64,000 nucleotides of DNA, from assembly GCA_020160955.1 (NCBI GenBank), contig JAIUOX010000007.1, forward strand, positions 1 through 64,000, in the 5' to 3' direction. This DNA is from Pseudomonadota bacterium. Lineage in GTDB: Bacteria > Pseudomonadota > Alphaproteobacteria > Reyranellales > Reyranellaceae. Position 1 is the first letter of the stretch, and every line of letters begins with the position of its first letter. The notes beneath the pieces are model-generated. The model had not been told where the DNA came from, made no database searches, and worked only from the letters and a program-made list of their open reading frames with translations. Position numbers and translations under genes: made by a program. Positions 22,344 to 35,492 of this stretch are shown piece by piece.

Positions 22344-24281
22344 ATGTCATCCGACAACGTCCAAGCTCTTCCCGCCGGCACGCTGATCGGCGATTTCCGG
22401 CTCGACGCGGTGATCGGCCACGGCGGCTTCGGCATCACCTACCGCGCCTTCGACACCCAGCTCGCCAAGATCGTCGCCATCAAGGAATACCTGCCGGTCG
22501 AGTACGCCGTGCGCGACGCCGGCGGCACGGTGGTGCCGCGCGGCAGCCGCTACGCCGAGGATTTCGGCTGGGGCCTCGAGCGCTTCCTCGACGAGGCGCG
22601 GGCGCTGGCCCGCTTCCGCCACCTCCACATCGTGCCGGTGCTGCGCTACTTCGAGGCCAACGGCACCGCCTACACCGTGATGGAGTTCGAGGACGGCCGC
22701 AGCGTCGCCGAGCTGCTGCGCGCGCCCAACGACCGCGTGCCCGCCGACGTCGTGCGCCGCCTCGCCGAGGGACTGCTCAAGGGGCTGGCGACGGTGCATG
22801 CGCAGGGCTTCCTGCATCGCGACATCAAGCCGGCCAACATCATCGTGCGGCGCACCGACGGCGTGCCGGTGCTGATCGATTTCGGCGCCGCGCGCCAGGT
22901 GATGGGCGGCCGCACGCGCACGCTGACCAACGTGATGACGCCGCAGTACGCGCCGATCGAGCAGTACGCGACCGACGGCAAGCAGGGGCCGTGGAGCGAC
23001 ATCTACGCGGCCGCTGCCGTGCTCTACCAGTGCATCGCGGGCCGGGCGCCGCCCGAGGCAGCGGCGCGCGTCGGCCACGATCCCTACGTGCCGCTGGTCG
23101 ACCTCGCGGACCAGCGCTACGACCGCCAGTTCCTCGCCGCGATCGACCACGCGCTGGCCTTCGCCGCGCCCGACCGGCCGCAGTCGATCGCCGAGTGGGC
23201 GGCGCTGTTCGGTCCGACGATCGGCCGCGTCGCCGATGCGCCGACCCAGCGGCTCGAGCCGCCCACCCAGCCCAACCCCGCCGCGTCGCCGGCCTCGGCC
23301 GGAGCGGGCGCGATGGCGCCGCCACGGCTCGGCGGCGCCCGGCGCGCGCCCACGCCCGTCGTCGTGGCCGAGCCGGCGCCGCGCCGCCGTCGCCGGTCGT
23401 GGCGCTGGCTGATCGTGCTGTTCGTGATCGTGCTGGCGGCGGGCGGCCTGCGTCGCATCCAGCCGTTGCTCGACCAGGTGTGGGCGCGGTTCGTGCCGCC
23501 GCCCGCCACCTCGACGGCGACGGCCCCGTCGCAACCCGCGCCGTCCCAGACGCCCTCACCTTCACCGGCGCCGCCGTCGACGCCGACGCAAGCGGCGACG
23601 CCGTCACCGCGTCCGCCGGCCGCGCCTTCGACGGCCAGGCCGTCGCTCGCCGAGCCGGCGGGGCAGGCGGCGACCGCGGCGCGCGCGCTCCAGGAACGCG
23701 CCGAGGAAGCGTCGGGCGCGGCGCGGGCGATGGCGGGCGAGGCGCGCATCGTCGCTGCCCGCGCGGCGCGCCCGGACCTGCCGAACGCCGAACGCCTGTC
23801 GAGCGACGGGCTGTCCTACGTGGGCCAGGTCGTCGACGGCAAGCGGCAGGGGCTGGGCGTCGTCGAGCTGGCGAGCGGCGAACGCCAGGCCGGCGACTTC
23901 AACGACGATCGCCTGAACGGGCTGGGCACGGTGCGGCTGGCCGACGACACGCGCTACGCCGGCCAGTGGCGCGACGGCCAGGCCACTGGCATGGGCGCGC
24001 GCGAGAAGCCGGGCGTCGAACGCACCGAGGGCAGCTTCTCCGGCGGCCGCTTCGACGGGCTGGGCACGCGACGCACGCTGGCCGAGCCGGTGGTCGTGCA
24101 GTCCGGCGAGTTCCGCAACGACCTGCTGGAAGGTCCCGGCGTCGAGCAGGTCGGCGGCGAGCGCTACGCCGGCGGCTTCCGCAACGGCAAGCGCCACGGC
24201 TACGGCCAGGTCACGCTGCCGAACGGCACGGTGCAGTCGGGCCGCTGGGACGACGGAAGGCTGGTCGAAGCGACGCCGTAA
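22344..24281 (+). CDS. Transmembrane Ser/Thr protein kinase with C-terminal MORN repeats
   Basis: A 645-residue protein. Residues 17-290 are a Hanks-type kinase with all catalytic marks: glycine loop GHGGFGITYR (25-34), Lys47 in VAIKEY, Glu84, HRDIKPANI (158-166) and DFG (179-181). A basic patch and one membrane helix follow (RRSWRWLIVLFVIVLAAGG, about 351-369). Then come a Pro/Ser/Thr-rich linker (385-440) and, from 491 to 640, six or so MORN-type repeats (YVGQVVDGKRQGLGV, YAGQWRDGQATGMG, YAGGFRNGKRHGYGQVTLPN). The MORN part would face the periplasm. nasT starts 37 bases downstream, so co-transcription is possible. Substrate and ligand are unknown. Confidence 0.92.
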   Translation: MSSDNVQALPAGTLIGDFRLDAVIGHGGFGITYRAFDTQLAKIVAIKEYLPVEYAVRDAGGTVVPRGSRYAEDFGWGLERFLDEARALARFRHLHIVPVLRYFEANGTAYTVMEFEDGRSVAELLRAPNDRVPADVVRRLAEGLLKGLATVHAQGFLHRDIKPANIIVRRTDGVPVLIDFGAARQVMGGRTRTLTNVMTPQYAPIEQYATDGKQGPWSDIYAAAAVLYQCIAGRAPPEAAARVGHDPYVPLVDLADQRYDRQFLAAIDHALAFAAPDRPQSIAEWAALFGPTIGRVADAPTQRLEPPTQPNPAASPASAGAGAMAPPRLGGARRAPTPVVVAEPAPRRRRRSWRWLIVLFVIVLAAGGLRRIQPLLDQVWARFVPPPATSTATAPSQPAPSQTPSPSPAPPSTPTQAATPSPRPPAAPSTARPSLAEPAGQAATAARALQERAEEASGAARAMAGEARIVAARAARPDLPNAERLSSDGLSYVGQVVDGKRQGLGVVELASGERQAGDFNDDRLNGLGTVRLADDTRYAGQWRDGQATGMGAREKPGVERTEGSFSGGRFDGLGTRRTLAEPVVVQSGEFRNDLLEGPGVEQVGGERYAGGFRNGKRHGYGQVTLPNGTVQSGRWDDGRLVEATP

Positions 24282-24318
24282 AGGTCGATGGCACGGTCCT
24301 TGCGCCCCGCGGTCCGTT

Positions 24319-24906
24319 GTGACCAAGGCGCTGTCCGTCCTGCTGATCGATGACAACCCGGCCCGGGCGGAGATCGTGCAGGCCGGCCTGGCGGCGGCCG
24401 GCTATCGCCTGCTGGCGCGGCTCGACGGCACGCAGGACCTGATCAGCCGGGTGCGCGACCTCGAGCCCGACGTGGTGGTCGTCAGCATCGACAGTCCCAG
24501 CCGCGACACCATCGAGGACATGCGCCGCACCACCGACCAGGCGCCGCGGCCGATCGCCCTGTTCGTAGACGACTCCGATCCCGCGACCATCGCCGCCGCG
24601 ATCGATGCCGGCGTCTCGGCCTACGTCGTCAAGGGCGTCGCGCAGGACCGCGTGCGGCCGGTGGTCGACGTCGCGGTGGCGCAGTTCAACCGCTACCAGG
24701 CGATGCGCGAGGAACTCGACCGCACGCGGCTGTCGCTGGTCGAGCGCAAGACCATCGACCGCGCCAAGGGCCTGCTGATGGAACAGCGCGGGCTGGGCGA
24801 GGAGGCGGCCTACCGCCTGCTGCGCAAGCTGGCGATGGACCAGAACAAGCGCATCGGCGAGGTGGCGCGCGACTTCGTCACCTACGCGCGCGTGTTGAAG
24901 GGGTGA
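24319..24906 (+). CDS. nasT: NasT-type ANTAR response regulator / antiterminator
   Basis: A 195-residue RNA-binding antiterminator, starting at GTG. Residues 1-125 are a receiver-like domain with acidic pair LIDD (10-11), a central Asp in VVVVSIDSPS and Lys in AYVVKGV. Residues 130-190 are the ANTAR domain: ERKTIDRAKGLLMEQRGLGE then EAAYRLLRKLAMDQNKRIGE and VARDFV. In Azotobacter, Paracoccus and Bradyrhizobium, NasT binds paired hexaloop hairpins in nitrate-operon leaders and stops termination, unless NasS holds it when nitrate is absent. A matching leader is present 250 bases downstream. Confidence 0.94.
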   Translation: MTKALSVLLIDDNPARAEIVQAGLAAAGYRLLARLDGTQDLISRVRDLEPDVVVVSIDSPSRDTIEDMRRTTDQAPRPIALFVDDSDPATIAAAIDAGVSAYVVKGVAQDRVRPVVDVAVAQFNRYQAMREELDRTRLSLVERKTIDRAKGLLMEQRGLGEEAAYRLLRKLAMDQNKRIGEVARDFVTYARVLKG

Positions 24907-24911
24907 AAGGG

Positions 24912-25000
24912 AAAGGTCCCTCGCTGCGCTCGGGATGACAGGAAGAGGCCGTCATGCCGCGCGCCTTCCTTGTCATCCCGAGCGTAGCGAGGGACCCTTC
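24912..25000. repeat. Dispersed palindromic repeat family A, copy 2
   Basis: The same inverted arms as at 142-209 (AAAGGTCCCTCGCTGCGCTC..TGACA and TGTCATCCCGAGCG..GAGGGACCCTT), but the loop is longer by about 20 bases (GTCATGCCGCGCG inside). It begins five bases after the nasT stop and ends about 130 bases before the RpoN promoter. It may terminate nasT transcription and insulate it from the operon promoter. Confidence 0.85.
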
Positions 25001-25128: not shown

Positions 25129-25144
25129 TGGCACGCTTCCTGCT
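25129..25144 (+). promoter_or_regulatory. Sigma-54 (RpoN) promoter of the nitrate operon
   Basis: TGGCACG-CTTC-CTGCT matches the -24/-12 consensus TGGCACR-N4-TTGCW except for one base. The invariant GG (25130-25131) and GC (25142-25143) are separated by exactly ten bases. Transcription would begin near 25155, at the first base pair of leader hairpin 1. NtrC/RpoN control of nas operons is well known in proteobacteria, so sequence and context agree. Confidence 0.72.
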
Positions 25145-25153
25145 GCTCTGTCC

Positions 25154-25227
25154 GCGAGCCCAATGGCGGGCTCGCTCTCTTCTTGAAGACGGACCAACGA
25201 TGGTCCGTCGCCTGGACAACGGCGTCC
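25154..25227 (+). promoter_or_regulatory. ANTAR-target leader RNA: tandem hexaloop hairpins for NasT
   Basis: Hairpin 1 (25154-25175) has a perfect 8-bp stem GCGAGCCC/GGGCTCGC and loop AATGGC. Hairpin 2 (25188-25209) has a perfect 8-bp stem GACGGACC/GGTCCGTC and loop AACGAT. A weaker hairpin 3 (25214-25227) has stem GGAC/GTCC and loop AACGGC. All three loops carry A at position 1 and G at position 4, the defining contacts of ANTAR-protein RNA. A 12-base linker separates hairpins 1 and 2. Hairpin 3 shares its loop and 3' arm with the 5' arm of the following terminator, so the two folds exclude each other. NasT binding should favour read-through into nasS and the nitrate genes. Confidence 0.88.
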
Positions 25228-25276
25228 TGCACGGTCGGCACCTCCTCCTTGCCCGGCCGCGCGGGGCGCCGTTTTT
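25218..25276 (+). terminator. Attenuator terminator in the nitrate operon leader
   Basis: The 5' arm AACGGCGTCC (25218-25227) can pair over ten positions (one G-U) with the GGGCGCCGTT region at 25264-25273, enclosing a 36-base loop. A run of five T (25272-25276), then CGTTT, follows. This is an intrinsic terminator only about 20 bases before the nasS start, with no gene between, so it can only act as an attenuator. Confidence 0.78.
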
Positions 25277-25295
25277 CGTTTGAGGTGCGGACGGC

Positions 25296-26444
25296 ATGGC
25301 CGAGCTGGAGCGACCGAACATCAAGGTCGGGTTCATCCCGATCATCGACTGCGCGGCCATCGTGCTCGCCGAGGAACTCGGCGCCTACGAGCGCCAGGGA
25401 ATCGAGGTCGAGATCGTGCGCGAGGTGTCGTGGGCCAACGTCCGCGACAAGCTGGCGCTCGGCAAGCTCGACGCCTCGCACATCCTGGCGCCGCTGCCGC
25501 TCGCGCTGACGCTCGGCATCGACAGCGTCGGCGTGCCGCTGGTCAACGCCATGACGCTGCAGGTCAACGGCAACGCGCTGACCCTGTCGACCGCGCTGTG
25601 GCAGGAGATGGAGCAGGCCGCGCCCGGCCTGGTCGCGGCGGACGGCCCGCTCGACGCGCGCGCGCTGGCCGCCGTCGTGGCGAAGCGCAAGGCCGCCGGC
25701 GCGAAGCCGGTGGTGCTCGCCTCGGTGTTCCCCTACTCGGCGCAGAACTACATGGTGCGGCTGTGGCTGTCGTCGGGCGGGCTCGATCCCGACCGCGACG
25801 TGCGGCTCGTCACGGTGCCGCCGCCGCACACCGTGGCCTACCTGTCGGGCGGCGCGATCGACGGCTACTGCGTCGGCGAGCCGTGGAACCAGCAGGCGCA
25901 GGCGCTGGGCATCGGCCGCATCGCGCTGACCGGGCCGGACATCTGGACCGGCATGCCGGAGAAGGTGCTGGGCTGCACCGAGTCGTGGGCGGCCAACAAT
26001 CCCAACACGCTGCGCGCCCTGGTGCGCGCCCTGATCGAGGCCTGCCTGTGGCTCGACGAGCCGGCCAACCGGCCCGAGGCGGCGCGCATCCTGTCGAACC
26101 CGCGCTACCTCAACATGCCGGTCGAGGTGATGGCGCGCACGCTGGAGCGGCCCGGCTTCCACGTCTTCCAGCGCGACTTCGCCAACTTCCCGTGGCGCAG
26201 CCACGCCGACTGGTTCCTGGCCCAGATGGTGCGCTGGGGCCAGGCCCCGCCCGACACCGACATCAAGGCGGTCGCCGACCGCGTCTACCGCACCGACCTC
26301 TACCGCGCCGCCGCCCGCGATATGGGCGTGGCGTGCCCGGACGCCGACCGCCTGCCGCCCGGCGGCCACGGCGAGCCGCTGCCTTCATCCACCGTTTCCA
26401 GGACCGCTCCAGGGACTTCAGCGCAGGAGATTGCCAATGGCTAG
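25296..26444 (+). CDS. nasS: NasS-type cytoplasmic nitrate sensor
   Basis: A 382-residue NrtA-like binding protein without a signal peptide (MAELERPNIKVGFIPIIDCA at the N-terminus), which is the mark of NasS rather than of the transport protein. Family blocks are LGKLDASHILAPLPLALTLG, VFPYSAQNYMVRLWLSSGG, VTVPPPHTVAYLSGGAIDGY and CVGEPWNQQAQALGIGRIAL. Known NasS proteins bind nitrate in the cytoplasm and release NasT. Here nasS is the first gene behind the NasT-dependent attenuator. It overlaps the next gene by 8 bases. The last ~35 residues are low-complexity and may be dispensable. Confidence 0.85.
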   Translation: MAELERPNIKVGFIPIIDCAAIVLAEELGAYERQGIEVEIVREVSWANVRDKLALGKLDASHILAPLPLALTLGIDSVGVPLVNAMTLQVNGNALTLSTALWQEMEQAAPGLVAADGPLDARALAAVVAKRKAAGAKPVVLASVFPYSAQNYMVRLWLSSGGLDPDRDVRLVTVPPPHTVAYLSGGAIDGYCVGEPWNQQAQALGIGRIALTGPDIWTGMPEKVLGCTESWAANNPNTLRALVRALIEACLWLDEPANRPEAARILSNPRYLNMPVEVMARTLERPGFHVFQRDFANFPWRSHADWFLAQMVRWGQAPPDTDIKAVADRVYRTDLYRAAARDMGVACPDADRLPPGGHGEPLPSSTVSRTAPGTSAQEIANG

Positions 26445-27738
26445 CAAGACCGTCTCGTTCGGCCGCCGCCGCCTGATCAAGGGCGCCACCGCCACCGCCG
26501 CGCTGGTCGGCGCCGTGCGCACCGCCTTCCCGGCCGGCGCCTTCGCGCAGGCCGGCGGGCCGGAGACCAACAAGGTGACGCTGGGCTTCATCGCGCTGAC
26601 CGACGCGTCGCCGCTGATCATCGCCAAGGAAAAGAAGCTGTTCGACAAGTACGGCATCACCGACGCCAACGTCGCCAAGCAGGCGTCGTGGGGCACGACG
26701 CGCGACAACATCGTGCTGGGCGGCGGCGCCGGCGGCATCGATGGCGCGCACATCCTGACGCCGAAGCCGTACCAGATCTCGCTGGGCACCACGACGGCCG
26801 AGAACAAGCCGGTGCCGATGTATATCCTGTGCCGCCTCAACTACGACTGCCAGGGCCTGTCGGTCTCCAACGAGTTCAAGGGGCTGGGCGTCACGATCGA
26901 CGCCAAGCCGCTCAAGGAGGCCTTCGCCAAGAAGAAGGCGGCGGGCAAGGAAGTGAAGGCCGCGATGACCTTCCCCGGCGGCACCCACGACCTGTGGATC
27001 CGCTACTGGATGGCCGCCGCCGGCATCGATCCCGACAAGGACGTCTCGACCATCGTCGTGCCGCCGCCGCAGATGGTGGCCAACATGAAGGTCGGCAACA
27101 TGGACGCCTTCTGCGTCGGCGAGCCGTGGAACGAGCAGCTGGTCAACCAGGACATCGGCTTCACCGCCGCGATGACCGGCGAACTTTGGAAGGACCACCC
27201 GGAGAAGTCGCTCGGCATGCGCGCCGACTGGGTCGACAAGAACCCCAAGGCCGCGATGGCCGTGCTGATGGCCGTCATGGAGGCCCAGCAGTGGTGCGAC
27301 AAGATGGAGAACAAGGACGAGCTCGCGCAGATCATCGGCAAGCGCCAGTGGTTCAACGTGCCGCCCGCCGACATCGTCAATCGCATCAAGGGCAAGTTCA
27401 ACTACGGCGACGGCCGCAAGGTCGTCGAGAACTCCGACCAGCTGATGAAGTTCTGGAAGGGCGGCGTGTCCTATCCCTACCAGAGCCACGAGCTGTGGTT
27501 CCTCACCGAGAACCAGCGCTGGGGCAAGCTGCCGATGGATCTCGACACCAAGGCGATCATCGGCAAGGTCAACCGCGAGGACCTGTGGCGCCAGGCCGCC
27601 AAGAACATCTCGGCCGCCGAGGCCGACGTGCCCAAGAGCACGTCGCGCGGCAAGGAGACCTTCTTCGACGGCAAGGTGTTCGACCCGGCCGACCCGAAGG
27701 GCTACCTCGCGTCGCTGCAGATCAAGAAGGTGGCGTGA
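26437..27738 (+). CDS. nrtA: Nitrate ABC transporter substrate-binding protein
   Basis: A 433-residue periplasmic binding protein with a twin-arginine signal (RRRLIKGATATAALVGAVRT, cleavage near AFAQA). It is homologous along its length to the preceding NasS: VTLGFIALTDASPLIIAKEK, DGAHILTPKPYQISLGTTT, MTFPGGTHDLWIRYWMAAAG, IVVPPPQMVANMKVGNMDAF, CVGEPWNEQLVNQDIGFTA. It captures nitrate (or nitrite) for NrtB/NrtD. The ATG at 26437 follows AGGAGA; its stop overlaps the nrtB ATG (TGATG). Confidence 0.93.
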   Translation: MASKTVSFGRRRLIKGATATAALVGAVRTAFPAGAFAQAGGPETNKVTLGFIALTDASPLIIAKEKKLFDKYGITDANVAKQASWGTTRDNIVLGGGAGGIDGAHILTPKPYQISLGTTTAENKPVPMYILCRLNYDCQGLSVSNEFKGLGVTIDAKPLKEAFAKKKAAGKEVKAAMTFPGGTHDLWIRYWMAAAGIDPDKDVSTIVVPPPQMVANMKVGNMDAFCVGEPWNEQLVNQDIGFTAAMTGELWKDHPEKSLGMRADWVDKNPKAAMAVLMAVMEAQQWCDKMENKDELAQIIGKRQWFNVPPADIVNRIKGKFNYGDGRKVVENSDQLMKFWKGGVSYPYQSHELWFLTENQRWGKLPMDLDTKAIIGKVNREDLWRQAAKNISAAEADVPKSTSRGKETFFDGKVFDPADPKGYLASLQIKKVA

Positions 27739-28670
27739 TGGTCGCCGTTCCCAAGGCGGGCGCCGCGATCGTCACCGCGGCGGACATGCCGGTTCCCGAC
27801 GCGCCGGTGCGCCCGGGCGCCGGCAGCGGCGGCGAGATCGTCGCGTTCCGGCCGCCGGTGCGGCCGGCGCTGCAGCGGCTGGGCGAGCTTGCCCGCCACG
27901 TCGCGAGCATCGTGCTGCCGCCGCTCATCGTGCTCTGCGTCACGCTGTTCGTCTGGCAGCTCCTGTGCTCGGAGCCCGGCGCGCGCCTGCCGCCGCCGAC
28001 CAAGGTGGTGGCCGACGCGTGGGATTTCATCGCCGACCCGTTCTACGACAATGGCGGCGTCGACAAGGGCGCGTTCTGGCAGATCAGCAAGAGCCTCGGC
28101 CGCGTCGCCATCGGCTTCAGCATCGCGGCGGTGGTCGGCATCGCGCTGGGCGTCCTGATCGGCCAGAGCACCTGGGCGATGCGCGGGCTCGACCCGATCT
28201 TCCAGGTGCTGCGCACCGTGCCGCCGCTCGCCTGGCTGCCGCTGTCGCTGGCCGGCTTCCGCGACGCCCAGCCCTCGGCGCTGTTCGTGATCTTCATCAC
28301 CTCGATCTGGCCGATCATCATCAACACCTCGGTGGGCGTGCGGAACATCCCGCAGGACTACCGCAACGTCGCCGCGGTGATCCGCCTGTCGTGGTGGGAG
28401 GTGTTCTGGAAGATCACGCTGCCCGCCAGCGTGCCCTACATATTCACCGGCCTGCGCATCGGCATCGGCCTGTCGTGGCTCGCCATCGTCGCGGCCGAGA
28501 TGCTGATCGGCGGCGTCGGCATCGGCTTCTTCATCTGGGATGCCTGGAACAGCTCGCGCATCAGCGACATCATCGTGGCCCTCGTCTACATCGGCATCGT
28601 CGGCTTCCTGCTCGACAAGCTGATCGCGATGGTCGGCCACTTCGTCGGCCACGGCGTGTCGGCGCAGTAG
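27738..28670 (+). CDS. nrtB: Nitrate ABC transporter permease
   Basis: A 310-residue inner-membrane permease of the nitrate/taurine/bicarbonate group with an N-terminal cytoplasmic stretch and about six membrane segments. Characteristic parts are RTVPPLAWLPLSLAGFRDAQ, FIFITSIWPIIINTSVGVRN then IPQDYRNVAAVIRLSWWEVF (EAA-like loop) and TLPASVPYIFTGLRIGIGLS. The ATG at 27738 overlaps the nrtA stop, suggesting coupled translation. It probably works as a homodimer with NrtD. Confidence 0.93.
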   Translation: MVAVPKAGAAIVTAADMPVPDAPVRPGAGSGGEIVAFRPPVRPALQRLGELARHVASIVLPPLIVLCVTLFVWQLLCSEPGARLPPPTKVVADAWDFIADPFYDNGGVDKGAFWQISKSLGRVAIGFSIAAVVGIALGVLIGQSTWAMRGLDPIFQVLRTVPPLAWLPLSLAGFRDAQPSALFVIFITSIWPIIINTSVGVRNIPQDYRNVAAVIRLSWWEVFWKITLPASVPYIFTGLRIGIGLSWLAIVAAEMLIGGVGIGFFIWDAWNSSRISDIIVALVYIGIVGFLLDKLIAMVGHFVGHGVSAQ

Positions 28671-28679
28671 GAGGCGACC

Positions 28680-29480
28680 ATGGACCACAGCTACCTCAAG
28701 TTCGAGCAGGTCGGCATGAGCTTCCGCCGCGGCCAGATGGCCACGGAGGTGCTGCGCGACATCGACCTGACGATCCGCCAGGGCGAGTTCGTGTCGCTGA
28801 TCGGCCATTCCGGCTGCGGCAAGTCGACCTTGCTCAACATCCTGGGCGGCCTGCTGACCTCGACCACCGGCGAGGTGTTCCTCGAGGGCAAGGTGGTCGA
28901 CGCGCCCGGCCCGGACCGCGCCATCGTGTTCCAGAACCACTCGCTGCTGCCGTGGCTGACCGTCTACGGCAACGTCGCGATCGCCGTCGACAAGGTGTTC
29001 GGCTCGACCAAGAGCAAGGCCGAGCGCCACGACTGGGTGATGCACAACCTCGAGCTGGTGCAGATGGCCCAGGCCAAGGACAAGCGGCCGCACGAGGTCT
29101 CGGGCGGCATGAAGCAGCGTGTCGGCATCGCCCGCGCGCTCGCCATGCAGCCCAAGGTGCTGCTGATGGACGAGCCGTTCGGCGCGCTCGACGCGCTGAC
29201 CCGCGCCCACCTGCAGGACAGCGTGATGGAGATCCACGCCCGGCTCGGCAACACGGTGATGATGATCACCCACGACGTCGACGAGGCGGTGCTGCTGTCG
29301 GACCGCGTGGTGATGATGACCAACGGCCCGTCGGCGACGATCGGCGAGGTGCTGACGATCGGCCTCGACCGGCCGCGCCGCCGGCTCGAGCTGGCGACCG
29401 ACGCCGAGTACGCGCGCTGCCGCGCCGCCGTGCTGGAGTTCCTCTACGCCCGGCATCGCGTGCCGGCCCGCGCCGCCTGA
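28680..29480 (+). CDS. nrtD: Nitrate ABC transporter ATP-binding protein
   Basis: A 266-residue ATPase. Walker A GHSGCGKSTLLN lies near residue 42, the Q-loop FQNHSLLPWLTVYGN, the signature VSGGMKQRVGIARALAMQP, Walker B VLLMDEPFGALDALTRAHLQ and the switch TVMMITHDVDEAVLL. It lacks the extra C-terminal binding domain of cyanobacterial NrtC, so it is the NrtD/SsuB type. GGAGG precedes the ATG. It completes the nrtABD importer. Confidence 0.93.
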   Translation: MDHSYLKFEQVGMSFRRGQMATEVLRDIDLTIRQGEFVSLIGHSGCGKSTLLNILGGLLTSTTGEVFLEGKVVDAPGPDRAIVFQNHSLLPWLTVYGNVAIAVDKVFGSTKSKAERHDWVMHNLELVQMAQAKDKRPHEVSGGMKQRVGIARALAMQPKVLLMDEPFGALDALTRAHLQDSVMEIHARLGNTVMMITHDVDEAVLLSDRVVMMTNGPSATIGEVLTIGLDRPRRRLELATDAEYARCRAAVLEFLYARHRVPARAA

Positions 29481-29488
29481 GGCCTGCC

Positions 29489-31279
29489 GTGCAGGCGTTC
29501 GACGACGCGCAGAAGCAGTGGCTGCAAGGCTTCGTCAGCGGCCTCGAGGCGCGCAAGGCCGCCGACCGGCTGGCCGGGCGCGGCGCGGCGTCGTCGCCCG
29601 ACGCCGCCGCCAATGCCGCCGACGCCCTGCAGATCGCCGCGCAGGACCGCGCGGTCGCGGCCGGCGGCAAGCTGGTGCCGGAGGAGACCGCCAAGCGCCA
29701 GCGTCACCCGCTCGACCGCCGCGACGAGGTCGCCGCGCGCGCCGCCGCCGGGCAGTTCCCCAAGGGCATCGACGTCTTCCTGACCAAGTACCAGGGCCTG
29801 TTCTACGTCGCGCCGGCGCAGGACTCGTTCATGTGCCGCCTACGTATCCCCAACGGCGTCCTCGCCGCGTGGCAGTTCCGCGGCCTAGCCGACGCTGCCG
29901 AGACGCTGGGCGGCGGCTATGCCGACGTCACGACGCGCGCCAACCTGCAGGTCCGCGAGATCGGCGCCGCCGACGCGATCCGCTTTCTCGACGCCGTGAC
30001 GGCGCTAGGGCTGACGGCGCGCGGCTCGGGCGCCGACAACATCCGCAACGTCACCGGCAGCCCGACCGCCGGCATCGACCCGCAGGAACTGTACGACACG
30101 CGGCCGCTCGCCCACGCGATGCACCACTACATCCTCGACCACCGCGAGATGTACGGCCTGCCGCGCAAGTTCAACATCGCCTTCGACGGCGGCGGCCGCG
30201 TGCCGGTGCTGGAGGACACCAACGACATCGGCTTCGTCGCCTGCCGCGTCACCGGGGGCGAGGTCGCGCCGGGCGTCTGGTTCCGCCTGCAGCTGGGCGG
30301 CATCACCGGCCACCTCGACTTCGCCCACGAGACCGGCGTGCTGCTGAAGCCGGAGGAATGCGTGTCGGTCGCCGCCGCCGTGGTGCGCGCCTTCGCCGCC
30401 CACGGCGATCGCACCAACCGGCAGAAGGCGCGGCTGAAGTACGTGCTCGACCGGATGGGCCGCGACGCCTTCCTGGCCGAGGTCGAGAAGGAATACGGCC
30501 AACCGCTGCGCCGCGCGGCGGGGGCGGAGATCGCGCCGCGCGTGCTGGCCGACAAGCACGGCCATGTCGGGGTGCATCCGCAGAAGCAGCCCGGCCGCCA
30601 CTACCTCGGGCTGGTGCTGCCGGTCGGCCGGCTGACGGCCGAGCAGATGCGCGGCATCGCCGAGATCGCCGAGCGCTTCGGCAGCGGCACGATCCGGCTG
30701 ACGGTGTGGCAGAACCTGCTGGTCTCCGACGTCGCCGAGCGCGACATCGGCATCTGCATCGCCGCCATCAACGCGCTGGGGCTGGGCGTCGAGGCCAGCG
30801 CGATCCGGCGCGGCCTGGTCGCCTGCACCGGCAATGCCGGCTGCAAGTTCGCCGCCGCCAACACCAAGGGCCACGCGCTGCGGCTGGCCGACCATCTCGA
30901 GGCGCGCGTCGCGGTCGACCGGCCGGTCAACATCCACCTTACCGGCTGCCACCATTCCTGCGCCCAGCACTACGTCGGCGACATCGGCCTGCTGGCGGCC
31001 AAGGTCGAGCGCGGCGACGACAGCGTCGAGGGCTACCACGTCTATATCGGCGGCGGCGCCGCGGCGACCGACGAGCAGGCGATGGCCCGCGAATACGCCC
31101 GCGACATCGCCTTCGACGACCTGCCGGCGCTGCTGGAACGCCTGCTGGCCGCCTGGCTGGCGCACCGCGCGAAGCCGGACGAGACGTTCTTCGCCTTCGC
31201 CGGCCGCCACGACATCGACGCGCTCAAGGCGCTGGCCGACCGCACCCCGCTGCACGCCGTCTCCGCGGCCGCCTCATGA
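29489..31279 (+). CDS. nirA: Assimilatory nitrite reductase, NirA type
   Basis: A 596-residue siroheme/[4Fe-4S] enzyme reducing nitrite to ammonium with six electrons, starting at GTG. The N-terminus (DDAQKQWLQGFVSGLEARKA) is the NirA-specific lead-in, followed by RLRIPNG, DVTTRANLQVREIGA and DNIRNVTGSPTAG. The cluster/siroheme ligands are Cys446 and Cys452 (CTGNAGC) plus Cys487 and Cys491 (GCHHSC). The fit to NirA over NirB is good because there is no N-terminal NAD(P)H-binding half. The adjoining flavoprotein, whose ATG overlaps its stop (ATGA), probably supplies electrons. Confidence 0.9.
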   Translation: MQAFDDAQKQWLQGFVSGLEARKAADRLAGRGAASSPDAAANAADALQIAAQDRAVAAGGKLVPEETAKRQRHPLDRRDEVAARAAAGQFPKGIDVFLTKYQGLFYVAPAQDSFMCRLRIPNGVLAAWQFRGLADAAETLGGGYADVTTRANLQVREIGAADAIRFLDAVTALGLTARGSGADNIRNVTGSPTAGIDPQELYDTRPLAHAMHHYILDHREMYGLPRKFNIAFDGGGRVPVLEDTNDIGFVACRVTGGEVAPGVWFRLQLGGITGHLDFAHETGVLLKPEECVSVAAAVVRAFAAHGDRTNRQKARLKYVLDRMGRDAFLAEVEKEYGQPLRRAAGAEIAPRVLADKHGHVGVHPQKQPGRHYLGLVLPVGRLTAEQMRGIAEIAERFGSGTIRLTVWQNLLVSDVAERDIGICIAAINALGLGVEASAIRRGLVACTGNAGCKFAAANTKGHALRLADHLEARVAVDRPVNIHLTGCHHSCAQHYVGDIGLLAAKVERGDDSVEGYHVYIGGGAAATDEQAMAREYARDIAFDDLPALLERLLAAWLAHRAKPDETFFAFAGRHDIDALKALADRTPLHAVSAAAS

Positions 31280-32865
31280 ACGCGATCACGCCCATCTCGC
31301 CGGCGCTGCCCTCGCTGATCCCCGACAACGCGCCGTTCTCGGAGGACCAGCGCGCCTGGTTGAACGGCTTCTTCGCCGCCTACCTCGGCGTCGCCGGTCC
31401 GGGCAGCGCGGACGGTGACGCGGGCGGCGCGACGGCCGAGCCCGAGGAAGACCTGCCATGGCACGACGCGGCGTTGCCGCTCGCCGAGCGGCTGGCGCTG
31501 GCCGAGGGCCGCAAGCCCGAGCGCCAGCTCATGGCGGCGATGGCGCAGCTCGATTGCGGCCAGTGCGGCTACCTCTGCCAGACCTACGCCGAGGCGGTGT
31601 GGTCGGGCGCCGAGGCCGACCTCGGCCGCTGCGTGCCGGGCGGCAAGGAGACCCAGCGCAAGCTGAAGGAACTGGTGGCGGCGCTGGAGCCGCAGCGCGG
31701 CGGCGTCGCGCCGCTGGCGCCGGCGTCGAAGGCGGGCGCGCCGGTCGGCTCGCGCGACCGGCCGGCGCTCGCCATCCTGGTCGATGCCTACCCGCTCAAC
31801 CGGCCCGGTTCGGGCAAGGACGTGCGCCACGTCGTGCTCGACCTGTCGGCGACCGACCTCGCCTACGAGGCCGGCGACAGCCTGGGCGTGTTCGCGCGCA
31901 AGAACCCGGCGCTGGTGCAGGCGGTGCTCGACCGCCTCGGCGCGACCGGCGAGGAGATGGTGGCGTTCGACGGCGATGCCCTGCCGCTGCGCCAGGTGCT
32001 GCTCAGCAAGGTCGACATCGCGCGCCCGAGCGACGACTGCTTCCTGTTCCTGGCCGAGCGCGCCTTCGACGGCGAGGAAGCGCTGAAGCTGCAGGCGCTG
32101 GCGCGCGGCGAGGGACCGGCCGCGCTGGCCGAGGCCGACCTGCTCGACGTGCTGCTGGCCTTTCCCTCGGTGATGCCGTCGCTGCCCGGCCTGCTGAAGT
32201 CGCTCGACCGGCTGCAGCCGCGGCTCTACTCGATCGCCTCGTCGTCCAAGGCGCATCCGCAGGAAGTGCATCTCACCGTCTCGGCGGTCCGCTGGGACGC
32301 CAACGACCGCACCCGCACCGGCATCGGCTCGTGCTACCTCGCCGACTTCGCCAAGCCCGGCGACGTGATCCCGGTGTTCGTGCAGAAGAGCCACGGCTTC
32401 GGCCCGCCGTCCGACGACACCGCGCCGGCCATCATGGTCGGACCCGGCACCGGCATCGCGCCGTTCCGCGCCTTCCTCGAGGAGCGCGAGGCGCGCGGCG
32501 CCACCGGGCGCAACTGGCTGTTCTTCGGCGACCAGAAGCGGTCGAGCGATTTCCTCTACGAGGACCAGGTGCTCGACTGGCAGCGCCGTGGCGTGCTGCA
32601 TCGTCTCGACCTCGCCTTCTCGCGCGACCAGGAGGAGAAGCTCTACGTCCAGCACCGCATGCTGGAGAACGCCGCCGAGCTGTGGCGCTGGTTCGAGGAG
32701 GGCGCGCACTTCTACGTCTGCGGCGACGCCAAGCGGATGGCCAAGGACGTCGAGGACACGCTGCTGCGCATCGCCGCCGAGCAGGGCGGGCACGACGCTG
32801 CGGGCGCGCGGGCGTGGCTGGACGGGCTGGTCAAGGCCGGCCGCTACCAGCGCGACGTCTACTGA
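31276..32865 (+). CDS. Fe-S/FAD NADPH reductase (sulfite reductase alpha-like) of the nitrate operon
   Basis: A 529-residue electron-transfer flavoprotein. Residues 90-125 hold a four-cysteine Fes-type motif as in RnfB: CGQCGYLCQTYAEA (Cys94, 97, 101) and RCVPGG (Cys119). Residues 160-529 are the CysJ/P450-reductase FAD/NADPH module: RLYSIASSS (316-324) for FAD, GPGTGIAPFRAFLEER (389-404) and YVCGDAKRMAKDVE (480-493) for NADPH, and C-terminal YQRDVY. No flavodoxin domain is present, so the Fe-S motif probably takes its place in passing electrons to NirA and/or NasA. Its ATG overlaps the nirA stop. Confidence 0.87.
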   Translation: MNAITPISPALPSLIPDNAPFSEDQRAWLNGFFAAYLGVAGPGSADGDAGGATAEPEEDLPWHDAALPLAERLALAEGRKPERQLMAAMAQLDCGQCGYLCQTYAEAVWSGAEADLGRCVPGGKETQRKLKELVAALEPQRGGVAPLAPASKAGAPVGSRDRPALAILVDAYPLNRPGSGKDVRHVVLDLSATDLAYEAGDSLGVFARKNPALVQAVLDRLGATGEEMVAFDGDALPLRQVLLSKVDIARPSDDCFLFLAERAFDGEEALKLQALARGEGPAALAEADLLDVLLAFPSVMPSLPGLLKSLDRLQPRLYSIASSSKAHPQEVHLTVSAVRWDANDRTRTGIGSCYLADFAKPGDVIPVFVQKSHGFGPPSDDTAPAIMVGPGTGIAPFRAFLEEREARGATGRNWLFFGDQKRSSDFLYEDQVLDWQRRGVLHRLDLAFSRDQEEKLYVQHRMLENAAELWRWFEEGAHFYVCGDAKRMAKDVEDTLLRIAAEQGGHDAAGARAWLDGLVKAGRYQRDVY

Positions 32866-32870
32866 CGGCA

Positions 32871-35492
32871 ATGGTGGGCCCGGTGGTTCGCACGACCTGC
32901 CCCTACTGCGGCGTCGGATGCGGGCTCGAGATGCGACCGGATGGGCGCGGCGGCGCGACGGTCGCGGGCGATCCGGCCCATCCCGCCAATGCCGGCCGGA
33001 TCTGCTCCAAGGGCGCGGCGCTCGGCGAGACGCTGTCGCTGGCCGATCGCCTGCTGCATCCCGAGGTCGACGGACGGCGCGTGTCGTGGGACGCGGCGCT
33101 CGACGCCGTGGCCGACGGGCTGCGCGAGACGGTCGAGCGGCACGGGCCGGATGCCGTCGCCTTCTACGTCTCGGGCCAGCTGCTGACCGAGGACTACTAC
33201 GCCGCCAACAAGTTCCTGAAGGGCTTCATCGGCACCGCCAACATCGACACCAACTCCAGGCTCTGCATGGCCTCGTCGGTGGCCGGCCACAAGCGGGCCT
33301 TCGGCAGCGATACCATGCCGGGTCGCTACGAGGACTTCGAGCAGGCCGACCTTGTCGTGCTGGTCGGCAGCAACCTCGCCTGGTGCCATCCCGTGCTGTT
33401 CCAGCGGCTTGAGGCGGCGAAGCGGGCGCGACCGTCGCTACGCGTCGTCGTGGTCGATCCGCGCCGCACCGAGACCGGCGACATCGCCGACCTGCACCTC
33501 GCGCTGCGGCCGGGCAGCGACGTCGCCCTGTTCAACGCGCTGCTGGTCGCGCTGCACGATCGCGGCGCGGTCGACCGCGCCTTCGTCGAGGCGCACACCG
33601 ACGGTCTCGACGCGGCGCTGGCGGCGGCGCGCGCCACCGACGTCGCCGACTGCGGCCTGCCGGCGGCCGACCTCGCGACCTTCTTCGACTGGGTGGCGCG
33701 GACCGAGAAGACGGTCACGCTCTATTCCCAGGGCGTCAACCAGTCGAGCGCCGGCGTCGACAAGGTCAACGCGCTGATCAACGGCCACCTGCTGACCGGG
33801 CGGATCGGAAGGCCGGGCATGGGACCTTTCTCGATCACCGGCCAGCCCAACGCGATGGGCGGCCGCGAGGTCGGCGCGCTCGCCACCACGCTGGCCGCGC
33901 ACATGGACTTCGCCCCCGCCGACGTCGACCGCGTCGGCCGCTTCTGGGGCAGCGACCGCGTCGCCGCCAAGCCCGGCCTCAAGGCGGTCGAGCTGTTCGA
34001 CGCGGTGCGCGCCGGCCGCATCAAGGCGCTCTGGATCATGGCGACCAACCCGGTGGCCAGCCTGCCCGACGCCGACGCGGTGCGCGCCGCGATCGAGGGC
34101 TGCGAGCTGTCGATCGTGTCGGAGGCGATCCGGCGCAGCGACACGGTCGATGCATGCCGCATTCGCATGCCGGCGCTGGCGTGGGGCGAGAAGGACGGCA
34201 CCGTCACCAACTCCGAGCGCACGATCTCGCGCCAGCGGCCGTTCCTGCCGGCGCCGGGCGAGGCGCGCGCCGACTGGTGGATCGTGGCCGAGGTCGCGCG
34301 CCGCCTCGGCCACGGCGCGGCCTTCGGGTGGCGCGGCCCGGCCGACCTGTTCCGCGAACATGCCCGGCTGTCGACGTTCGAGAACGAGGGACGCCGCGCC
34401 TTCGACATCGGCGCGCGGGCCGAGATCGGTGACGATGCGTACGAGTCGCTGGCGCCGTTCGCCTGGCCGGCGCCGGCGGCTTCGTCCGCAACCGAACGCT
34501 TCTTCGCCGCCGGCGGCTTCTTCCACGCCGACCGGCGCGCCCGTTTCGTCGCCACCGTGCCGCGGCCGCCTGCCCATGCCGTCGGCAGCGCCTTCCCGAT
34601 CCGGCTCAACACCGGGCGGGTGCGCGACCAGTGGCACACCATGACGCGCACCGCGAAGTCGCCGCGGCTGGCCGGTCACCGGCCCGAGCCGACGCTCGAC
34701 CTTGCCGGCGCCGACGCGGCGGCGCGCGGTCTCGCCGACGGCGACATCGCGGAAGTCACCAGCGCGTGGGGCCGCGCCGTGCTGCGCGTGCAGGTCTCCG
34801 ATGCGGTGCGGCCGGGCGAGGCCTTCGCGCCGATGCACTGGACCGCGCAACTGTCGCGTGCCGGTCGCATCAACGCGGTGGTCAACCCGGCGGTTGACCC
34901 GGTGTCCGGCCAACCGGAACTGAAACACACGCCCGTCGAGGTGCGGCCGGTGACCGTCGCATGGCATGGCACGATTCTCGCTCGCCGCCCGGTCATGCTG
35001 CCGCAGGTTGCATACTGGGCCCGCATCACGGGCGCCGACGGCTTCGTCTATCGCCTGGCGGGCGATCAGCCCGCGGCCGCCGCGCGCCGCGCCCTGTCGG
35101 CGGCGCTGCGGGCGACCAATCCCGGTTCCTGGGTCGAGGGCGACGACGGTCTCGGCCTGGTGATGGGCGACGGCCGCCTCGAAGGCGCGTTGCAGCTGAC
35201 CGATGGCCCCGACGACTCGCTGCGCGATCGGCTGGCGCCGTTCCTGGCGCTCGACCGGCTCGACGCGGACCAGGCGGAGAGCCTGCGTCGCGGCGGTTCG
35301 AGCGATCTGCGCGGCGGCGAGATCTGCGCCTGTCTCGGCGTGTCGGTGTCGGCCGTGCAGGCCGCGATCGATGCCGGCGCGACCTCGTTGAGCGCGGTCG
35401 GCGACGCGACGCGCGCCGGCACCAGTTGCGGCTCCTGCCGGCCCGAGATCCGCGCTCTCGTGCGCGCGGCGCGGCCGCGGCAGGCCGCCTGA
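32871..35492 (+). CDS. nasA: Assimilatory nitrate reductase catalytic subunit
   Basis: An 873-residue molybdopterin (bis-MGD) oxidoreductase reducing nitrate to nitrite in the cytoplasm. The N-terminal [4Fe-4S] ligands are Cys10, 13, 17 and 45 (CPYCGVGC..RICSKG). The molybdenum domain follows (NIDTNSRLCMASSVAGHKRA, VLVGSNLAWCHPVLFQRLE, QGVNQSSAGVDKVNALINGH, GQPNAMGGREVGALATTLAA). A molydopterin-binding barrel holds RLNTGRVRDQWHTMTRT. The last 59 residues are a fused BFD-like [2Fe-2S] domain with Cys819, 821, 853 and 856. There is no signal peptide. It starts 5 bases after the flavoprotein stop. Confidence 0.95.
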   Translation: MVGPVVRTTCPYCGVGCGLEMRPDGRGGATVAGDPAHPANAGRICSKGAALGETLSLADRLLHPEVDGRRVSWDAALDAVADGLRETVERHGPDAVAFYVSGQLLTEDYYAANKFLKGFIGTANIDTNSRLCMASSVAGHKRAFGSDTMPGRYEDFEQADLVVLVGSNLAWCHPVLFQRLEAAKRARPSLRVVVVDPRRTETGDIADLHLALRPGSDVALFNALLVALHDRGAVDRAFVEAHTDGLDAALAAARATDVADCGLPAADLATFFDWVARTEKTVTLYSQGVNQSSAGVDKVNALINGHLLTGRIGRPGMGPFSITGQPNAMGGREVGALATTLAAHMDFAPADVDRVGRFWGSDRVAAKPGLKAVELFDAVRAGRIKALWIMATNPVASLPDADAVRAAIEGCELSIVSEAIRRSDTVDACRIRMPALAWGEKDGTVTNSERTISRQRPFLPAPGEARADWWIVAEVARRLGHGAAFGWRGPADLFREHARLSTFENEGRRAFDIGARAEIGDDAYESLAPFAWPAPAASSATERFFAAGGFFHADRRARFVATVPRPPAHAVGSAFPIRLNTGRVRDQWHTMTRTAKSPRLAGHRPEPTLDLAGADAAARGLADGDIAEVTSAWGRAVLRVQVSDAVRPGEAFAPMHWTAQLSRAGRINAVVNPAVDPVSGQPELKHTPVEVRPVTVAWHGTILARRPVMLPQVAYWARITGADGFVYRLAGDQPAAAARRALSAALRATNPGSWVEGDDGLGLVMGDGRLEGALQLTDGPDDSLRDRLAPFLALDRLDADQAESLRRGGSSDLRGGEICACLGVSVSAVQAAIDAGATSLSAVGDATRAGTSCGSCRPEIRALVRAARPRQAA

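Follow-up and report, generated by a model that had tools for sequence, protein, structure and literature searches.

The RNA target of ANTAR proteins, NasT among them, is described as a two-hairpin motif in the available text of two accounts (PMC7496416, PMC3369931). The leader that precedes the nitrate assimilation genes of a Reyranella relative instead presents three hairpins whose six-nucleotide loops have an A at position 1 and a G at position 4 (A1/G4 hexaloops). The locus raises the question of which of these loops serve NasT, in what order, and how the hairpins relate to the terminator that follows them. It was analysed within a stretch of 64,000 nucleotides, hereafter the window, for which the closest named records belong to Reyranella and to other Rhodospirillales/Alphaproteobacteria, many of them metagenome-assembled.

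In the genome assembly, which at 87% completeness may lack a further one, a single protein with an ANTAR match was found, the product of the nasT gene that adjoins the leader (Table 1). Its ANTAR domain aligns with that of EutV (chain 6wsh_A; numbering shifted by 2), whose RNA-contacting residues have been named for the 6WSH structure in the available portions of PMC8934654, and the contacts R142, K143, K147 (as R), K149, E160, Y164, R168 and M172 are all kept in NasT. The first gene behind the leader is taken as nasS from its position, its size and the lack of an export signal, such that a receiver-ANTAR protein stands beside an NrtA-like protein that is cytoplasmic by sequence, as in a NasS-NasT pair. 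A loose pattern places an RpoN-type site just upstream of nasT itself in 43 of the 44 loci that bear a leader; in the remaining locus the contig ends there. The site lies almost at the GTG start of nasT in the window and eight other loci, which would make the nasT mRNA nearly leaderless. Further upstream, a gene for a protein kinase that also matches a MORN repeat (22344-24281) stops 37 bases before nasT. Between nasT and the leader there is an inverted repeat (24916-24995; arms gtccctcgctgcgctcgggatgac / gtcatcccgagcgtagcgagggac), which looks like a dispersed palindromic repeat because near-identical arms are found at two further sites of the window (146 and ~43945-43992) and the repeat core recurs in L040, alone among the 44 other leaders.

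Table 1. Features of the nasT-nasS locus and of the leader between the two genes (window coordinates).
Feature	Position	Strand	Description	Evidence or sequence
RpoN-type -24/-12 site before nasT	24289..24304	+	inferred promoter	TGGCACGGTCCTTGC
nasT	24319..24906	+	receiver + ANTAR protein, 195 aa	PF03861 73.6 bits; PF00072 37.4 bits
RpoN-type -24/-12 promoter of nasS operon	25129..25144	+	predicted	TGGCACGCTTCCTGCT, TGGCACG-CTTC-CTGCT
H1	25154..25175	+	8-bp hairpin at about +1 of the predicted RNA	GCGAGCCC(AATGGC)GGGCTCGC
H2	25188..25209	+	8-bp hairpin	GACGGACC(AACGAT)GGTCCGTC
H3	25214..25227	+	4-bp hairpin, likely antiterminator	GGAC(AACGGC)GTCC
Intrinsic terminator	25218..25276	+	predicted; followed by a T run (RNA: U)	5' arm AACGGCGTCC; 3' arm GGGCGCCGTT
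nasS	25296..26444	+	NrtA/CmpA-like, without signal peptide; first gene after the leader	PF13379 281 bits
nrtA-like	26431..27738	+	nitrate-binding protein, twin-arginine-like N-terminus	PF13379 358.5 bits
nrtB-like	27738..28670	+	permease; start codon not fixed	PF00528
nrtC/D-like	28680..29480	+	nitrate transporter ATPase	TIGR01184 337.8 bits, above cut-off
nir	29480..31279	+	assimilatory nitrite reductase (NIR_SIR domains); start codon not fixed	PF01077, PF03460
Oxidoreductase	31276..32865	+	FAD/NAD oxidoreductase; start codon not fixed	PF00667, PF00175
nasA-like	32868..35492	+	molybdopterin nitrate reductase, C-terminal BFD domain; start codon not fixed	PF00384, PF01568, PF04879, PF04324

The RpoN consensus is TGGCACG-N4-TTGC[A/T], with GG and GC at -24 and -12. 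The predicted promoter of the nasS operon departs from it by one mismatch, and an rpoN gene is present in the genome. The shortened pattern TGGCA-N7-TGC, with seven matches across the window against 2.8 expected, is weak when taken alone, yet it counts because 43 of the 44 leaders carry it, the single miss being masked sequence. A preliminary description of this DNA had read behind such a promoter two perfect 8-bp hairpins clear of the terminator and a third of 4 bp overlapping it, all with A1/G4 loops, and all of these elements are present, the terminator as a prediction. The loop and 3' arm of H3 do double as the 5' arm of the terminator, with the letters 25218-25227 in common, while the GGAC arm of H3 falls outside it. 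Four of the features that, with protein-dependent read-through, define ANTAR hexaloop leaders (Ramesh 2012) can be recognized: stems of at least 3 bp with an A1/G4 hexaloop (three such hairpins), two hairpins joined by a short linker (H2 and H3, 4 nt apart, the additional H1 making this a variant), a last hairpin that is mutually exclusive with an intrinsic terminator, here a predicted one, and a cognate ANTAR protein encoded in the genome, next to the leader. A search of the window against Rfam returned no family at the gathering score. Among 5000 dinucleotide shuffles of positions 25150-25290 none contained three non-overlapping A1/G4 hexaloop hairpins and 14 contained two, and the leader stretch folds better than 200 of 200 shuffles (z -6.2).

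For comparison, loci were gathered by NasS from 60 genomes in addition to the window's own, and by NasT as the best 80 from 84,980 species genomes. The 68 loci that contain both nasT and nasS represent 45 distinct leaders of the genus, that of the window included. Three A1/G4 hairpins are found in 40 of these, and the motif GGAC(AxxGxx)GTCC in 44. The one exception (L054) has none of the three hairpins, lacks TGGCA-N7-TGC in the stretch searched and retains only the first 48 residues of nasS. Loci with a remnant nasS (L054) or a partial nasT match (L076 and L079) have no H3-type hairpin. An alignment was made of 40 of the 44 leaders, excluding the four without H1; the hairpin finder, which requires A1, misses H1 and H2 of L047, where loop 2 starts with G. 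The H1 loop has A1, A2 and G4 in all 40 aligned leaders and the H2 loop A1 in 39 and G4 in 40, while A1, G4 and the GGAC/GTCC stem of H3 are invariant (40/40). Mean column identity reaches 0.87, 0.81 and 0.88 in loops 1, 2 and 3, compared to 0.57 in the H1-H2 linker and 0.51 in the H2-H3 linker; the two H3 arms are identical throughout (1.0). This conservation of the loops shows selection for a putative binding motif rather than an order of use. By the preliminary description, free variation of loop 3 and its stem in relatives would have reduced the leader to an ordinary two-hairpin one; both prove to be conserved.

The stems are likewise maintained as stems. Over the three hairpins 94.0% of the alignment cells are paired, compared to 41-58% in slid controls, and two-sided changes occur in 10 of the 20 stem pairs, all of them among the 16 pairs of H1 and H2, a count reached by one of 500 shuffles. 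The H2 stem is 96.9% paired and covaries. In H1 the CC/GG closing pairs are kept in all 40 rows, while outer pairs fail in some leaders, one of them being broken in 15/40 rows. H3 is the weakest hairpin yet the most conserved of the three, and as its four pairs are invariant they give no covariation signal. Apart from the GGAC arm, this invariance could be partly due to the terminator, in which 92.2% of the pair cells are formed (43-62% when slid). Covariation in the terminator consists of a single pair, in which loop-3 position 5 covaries with the 3' arm (18 compensatory cells); the two-sided-pair count is matched by 183 of 500 shuffles, the number of pair types is reached by 500 of 500, and the pair at loop-3 position 3 fails in 30/40 rows. 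Loop 3 thus most likely belongs to both the hairpin and the terminator.

The strength of H1 and H2 and their position clear of the terminator might be taken to mean that these two form the NasT site and that H3 is a by-product of the terminator sequence. We regard this as very improbable, as the GGAC arm is invariant though it lies outside the terminator, four leaders drop H1 but keep H2 and H3, and two hairpins clear of the terminator would have no obvious way to stop it. The shuffling result and the conservation of H3 also led to the rejection of H3 as a chance feature or terminator by-product. The energies computed with RNAfold are -16.4 kcal/mol for H1, -14.3 for H2, -4.0 for H3 and -39.6 for the terminator, and across the 44 leaders the stretch from loop 3 onward ranges from -19.7 to -42.5 kcal/mol. 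H3, being far weaker than the terminator, would therefore win only if held before the 3' arm of the terminator is made. A minimum-energy pairing of GUCC at 25150-25153 with the GGAC arm was rejected, since the RNA is predicted to start downstream of this GUCC.

The leaders that lack H1 bear on which hairpins form the core. They make up four of the 44 (L046, L059, L067 and L070), and all retain H2 and H3. In a tree of NasT and NasS, L046 is placed next to L047 (support 0.84), while L059, L067 and L070 form a cluster elsewhere (0.995); as each position is surrounded by groups that have H1, the hairpin was most simply lost twice; five outgroups were labelled three-hairpin by hand for this tree, the first hairpin of L080 being weak, with two hairpins counted there by the rule-based scan. 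The -12 G of the promoter lies 13-16 nt upstream of H2 in all four, and in 39 of the 42 leaders measured it lies 11-19 nt before the first hairpin (52-53 nt in three). As this spacing is kept with or without H1, the first hexaloop tends to stand right where the RNA is predicted to begin. Leaders L045, L052 and L075 have ~37 nt extra between promoter and H1, where a further hairpin is possible by eye. Gap lengths, which are approximate since the hairpin finder over-extends some stems, are 1-6 nt between H2 and H3 (4 nt in the window, as in 26 of the 43 leaders measured) and 5-18 nt between H1 and H2 (39 leaders measured). Given the retention of H2 and H3 and of the promoter spacing in the H1-less leaders, together with the short gaps seen elsewhere, H2 and H3 are likely the classical ANTAR pair and H1 is most likely an extra hairpin. 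The earlier emphasis on the strong H1-H2 as the core, with H3 as an add-on, is not supported by the four H1-less leaders, which retain H2 and H3, and an H1-H2 core pair was rejected on these leaders, their promoter spacing and their placement in the tree.

With five of the 45 leaders lacking H1, one of them lacking every hairpin, H1 is not needed everywhere. The two lineages that do without it, and the position of the first hairpin close to the predicted RNA start in 39/42 leaders, would also suit a switch made of H2 and H3 alone, with H1 a 5'-end stem that serves RNA protection or promoter escape and does not bind NasT. A protective stem needs no A1, A2 or G4, yet H1 has them in every aligned leader, as it does the CC/GG closing pairs, and we consider a purely structural H1 unlikely. 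The best reading is that of a NasT leader with three usable loops, in which it is possible that NasT bridges loops 2 and 3 or that the three loops are used in turn.

Outside Reyranella, 66 loci were scanned for a terminator overlapping an A1/G4 hairpin with at least one further such hairpin upstream. These comprised 32 loci found by NasT, 27 found by NasS, for which 67 of 385 genomes gave a match and the best-scoring places were taken, and seven plasmid loci, drawn from 60 of the 245 plasmid records with a NasT match. Leaders were obtained from 25 of the loci, 14 with three hexaloops and 11 with two, where shuffling expects ~0.9 with an extra hairpin; the remaining 41 gave no leader by this rule. 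The three-loop leaders come from other Alphaproteobacteria, with Skermanella, Parvibaculum and Azospirillum among them, and from one Colwellia; that of Azospirillum has an additional hairpin upstream. Several of the 14 come from one genus and are not independent cases, and for L078 and L085 the hairpin counted as the third lies 46 nt off and may be chance, a weaker A1/G4 hairpin lying nearer. Six of the 11 two-hexaloop leaders, those of Shinella, Ensifer and Methylocella among them, have a gap of 0-4 nt, like H2-H3, while the other five, of which L146 and L158 are doubtful, have 12-28 nt; the evidence leans towards H2-H3 as the classical pair, though it is not uniform. In two loci of one genus (L124 and L127) a plain GC-rich hairpin, recognized by eye, replaces the middle hexaloop between two A1/G4 hairpins, as if it were a folded spacer that keeps the loops close.

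A model search of the 385 genomes, which is insensitive as nine candidates were scored per genome, yielded matches at E 0.01 in 24 genomes. Most matches weaker than ~1e-4 look like chance, the exceptions being L130, a two-hexaloop leader, and L140, with a leader elsewhere in the locus. In the genome of the window, beyond the leader itself, the model found only weak matches (best E 0.36; 150 of 13325 first-look candidates scored). The extra hexaloop in 14 of the 25 leaders outside Reyranella, several of them close relatives, suggests that pair-only models omit part of the element.

We propose, as the probable mechanism, that NasT freed by nitrate loads serially on H1, H2 and H3 and holds H3 against the predicted terminator. 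The direct basis is the anatomy, the conservation and covariation, the H1-less leaders and the computed energies, from which we infer all binding, the loading order and the regulation. At nitrogen shortage the RpoN polymerase would start at ~25155, the predicted start, right at H1. Without nitrate, by analogy with Paracoccus, NasS would retain NasT, and transcription would stop at the terminator, which is much more stable than H3. When nitrate is present, the first hairpin boarded by NasT would be H1. From the completion of H1 to the start of the terminator's 3' arm 89 nt are transcribed, against only 55 nt for H2, which is completed 34 nt after H1. Transcripts elongate at ~40-50 nt per second, which would allow NasT ~2 s for boarding from H1 vs ~1.2 s from H2. 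NasT, or a second dimer, would then move to H2 and on to the weak H3, 4 nt downstream, which, at -4 kcal/mol against ~-40 for the terminator, the protein would have to capture during transcription. With H3 held, loop 3 and the 3' arm would be denied to the terminator and the nasS-nrt-nir-nasA genes transcribed. H1 would thus act as an added recruitment hairpin, a second recruitment site upstream of the pair. Because the leader precedes nasS, NasT would raise its own antagonist, read-through increasing NasS as a brake on NasT.

The same three loops could alternatively be occupied simultaneously by three NasT dimers in one larger assembly, with no serial hand-over. For Paracoccus NasT released from NasS, about six monomers have been estimated in the available text of PMC3795266, which fits three dimers, and two EutV dimers are reported per two-loop RNA (PMC8934654, available portions). 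However, the leaders described for related proteins in the accessible part of PMC7496416 have two hairpins, relatives without H1 exist, and H1-H2 gaps of 5-18 nt, set against 1-6 nt for H2-H3, do not suggest a rigid single array, which makes a simultaneous assembly rather improbable. Serial loading that ends on H3 remains our preferred explanation. By extension, and more tentatively, three-hexaloop leaders may constitute a widespread second ANTAR architecture, in which a dimer boards at the 5' end and is relayed from loop to loop, the number of upstream loops sets the boarding time and the nitrate sensitivity, and the placement of nasS adds a self-limiting loop.

The ANTAR accounts considered here disagree over the path of the dimer, which is either placed on both loops at once or handed from one to the next. 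In the available text on EutV a dimer is modelled to bind a recruitment hairpin and then pass to the antiterminator hairpin, and a 20-nt extension of the linker abolished the effect (PMC8934654). The corresponding text on NasR has a dimer on both hairpins, with two hairpins bound at ~1 uM, one at ~12 uM, and both required for full affinity (PMC7496416). The natural series of two- and three-loop leaders described here, with the same protein family, promoter spacing and last hairpin, offers a ready-made test of spanning against moving.

Among known systems, EutV/eutP of Enterococcus faecalis, as far as the available text covers it (PMC3369931, PMC8934654), shares with the present leader the A1/G4 hexaloops, short stems, short linker, last hairpin overlapping a terminator and ANTAR contact residues. 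It differs in having two hairpins rather than three, the first here lying at the predicted RNA start, and in a regulator that is phosphorylated, while NasT would be freed by a nitrate-binding partner. The nasF leader of Klebsiella oxytoca is similar in its nitrate-responsive ANTAR antitermination before nitrate assimilation genes and in its P1P2 two-hairpin motif (PMC7496416), but NasR itself senses nitrate, and two hairpins are described in the text available. The nasA leader of Paracoccus denitrificans has the same function and the same protein pair, NasS-NasT, in which nitrate releases NasT from NasS and NasT binds the nas leader RNA, according to the accessible parts of PMC3795266 and PMC5424462. 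There, however, the leader follows nasS and two hairpins, HI and HII, are described (PMC5424462, PMC3795266). Annotated records of Shinella and Methylocella likewise place the leader after nasS, in contrast to the window, where it precedes nasS.

A literature search that covered few subscription papers retrieved no three-hexaloop ANTAR leader; PMC6759348 cites a further study of a NasT leader, in Pseudomonas. The nearest parallels are EutX/Rli55, which combines a dual hexaloop with one further single hexaloop with G4 (PMC8934654, available portions), and one Desulfotomaculum with at least 13 motif matches in six transcription units (PMC3369931, likewise). Given these, several sites per transcript may occur elsewhere as well. 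EutX/Rli55 is, however, a small RNA that sequesters EutV, and not a leader with an extra loop before the pair that overlaps the terminator. We suggest that the three-hexaloop leader represents a new variant of the ANTAR leader, alongside the two-hairpin devices already known.
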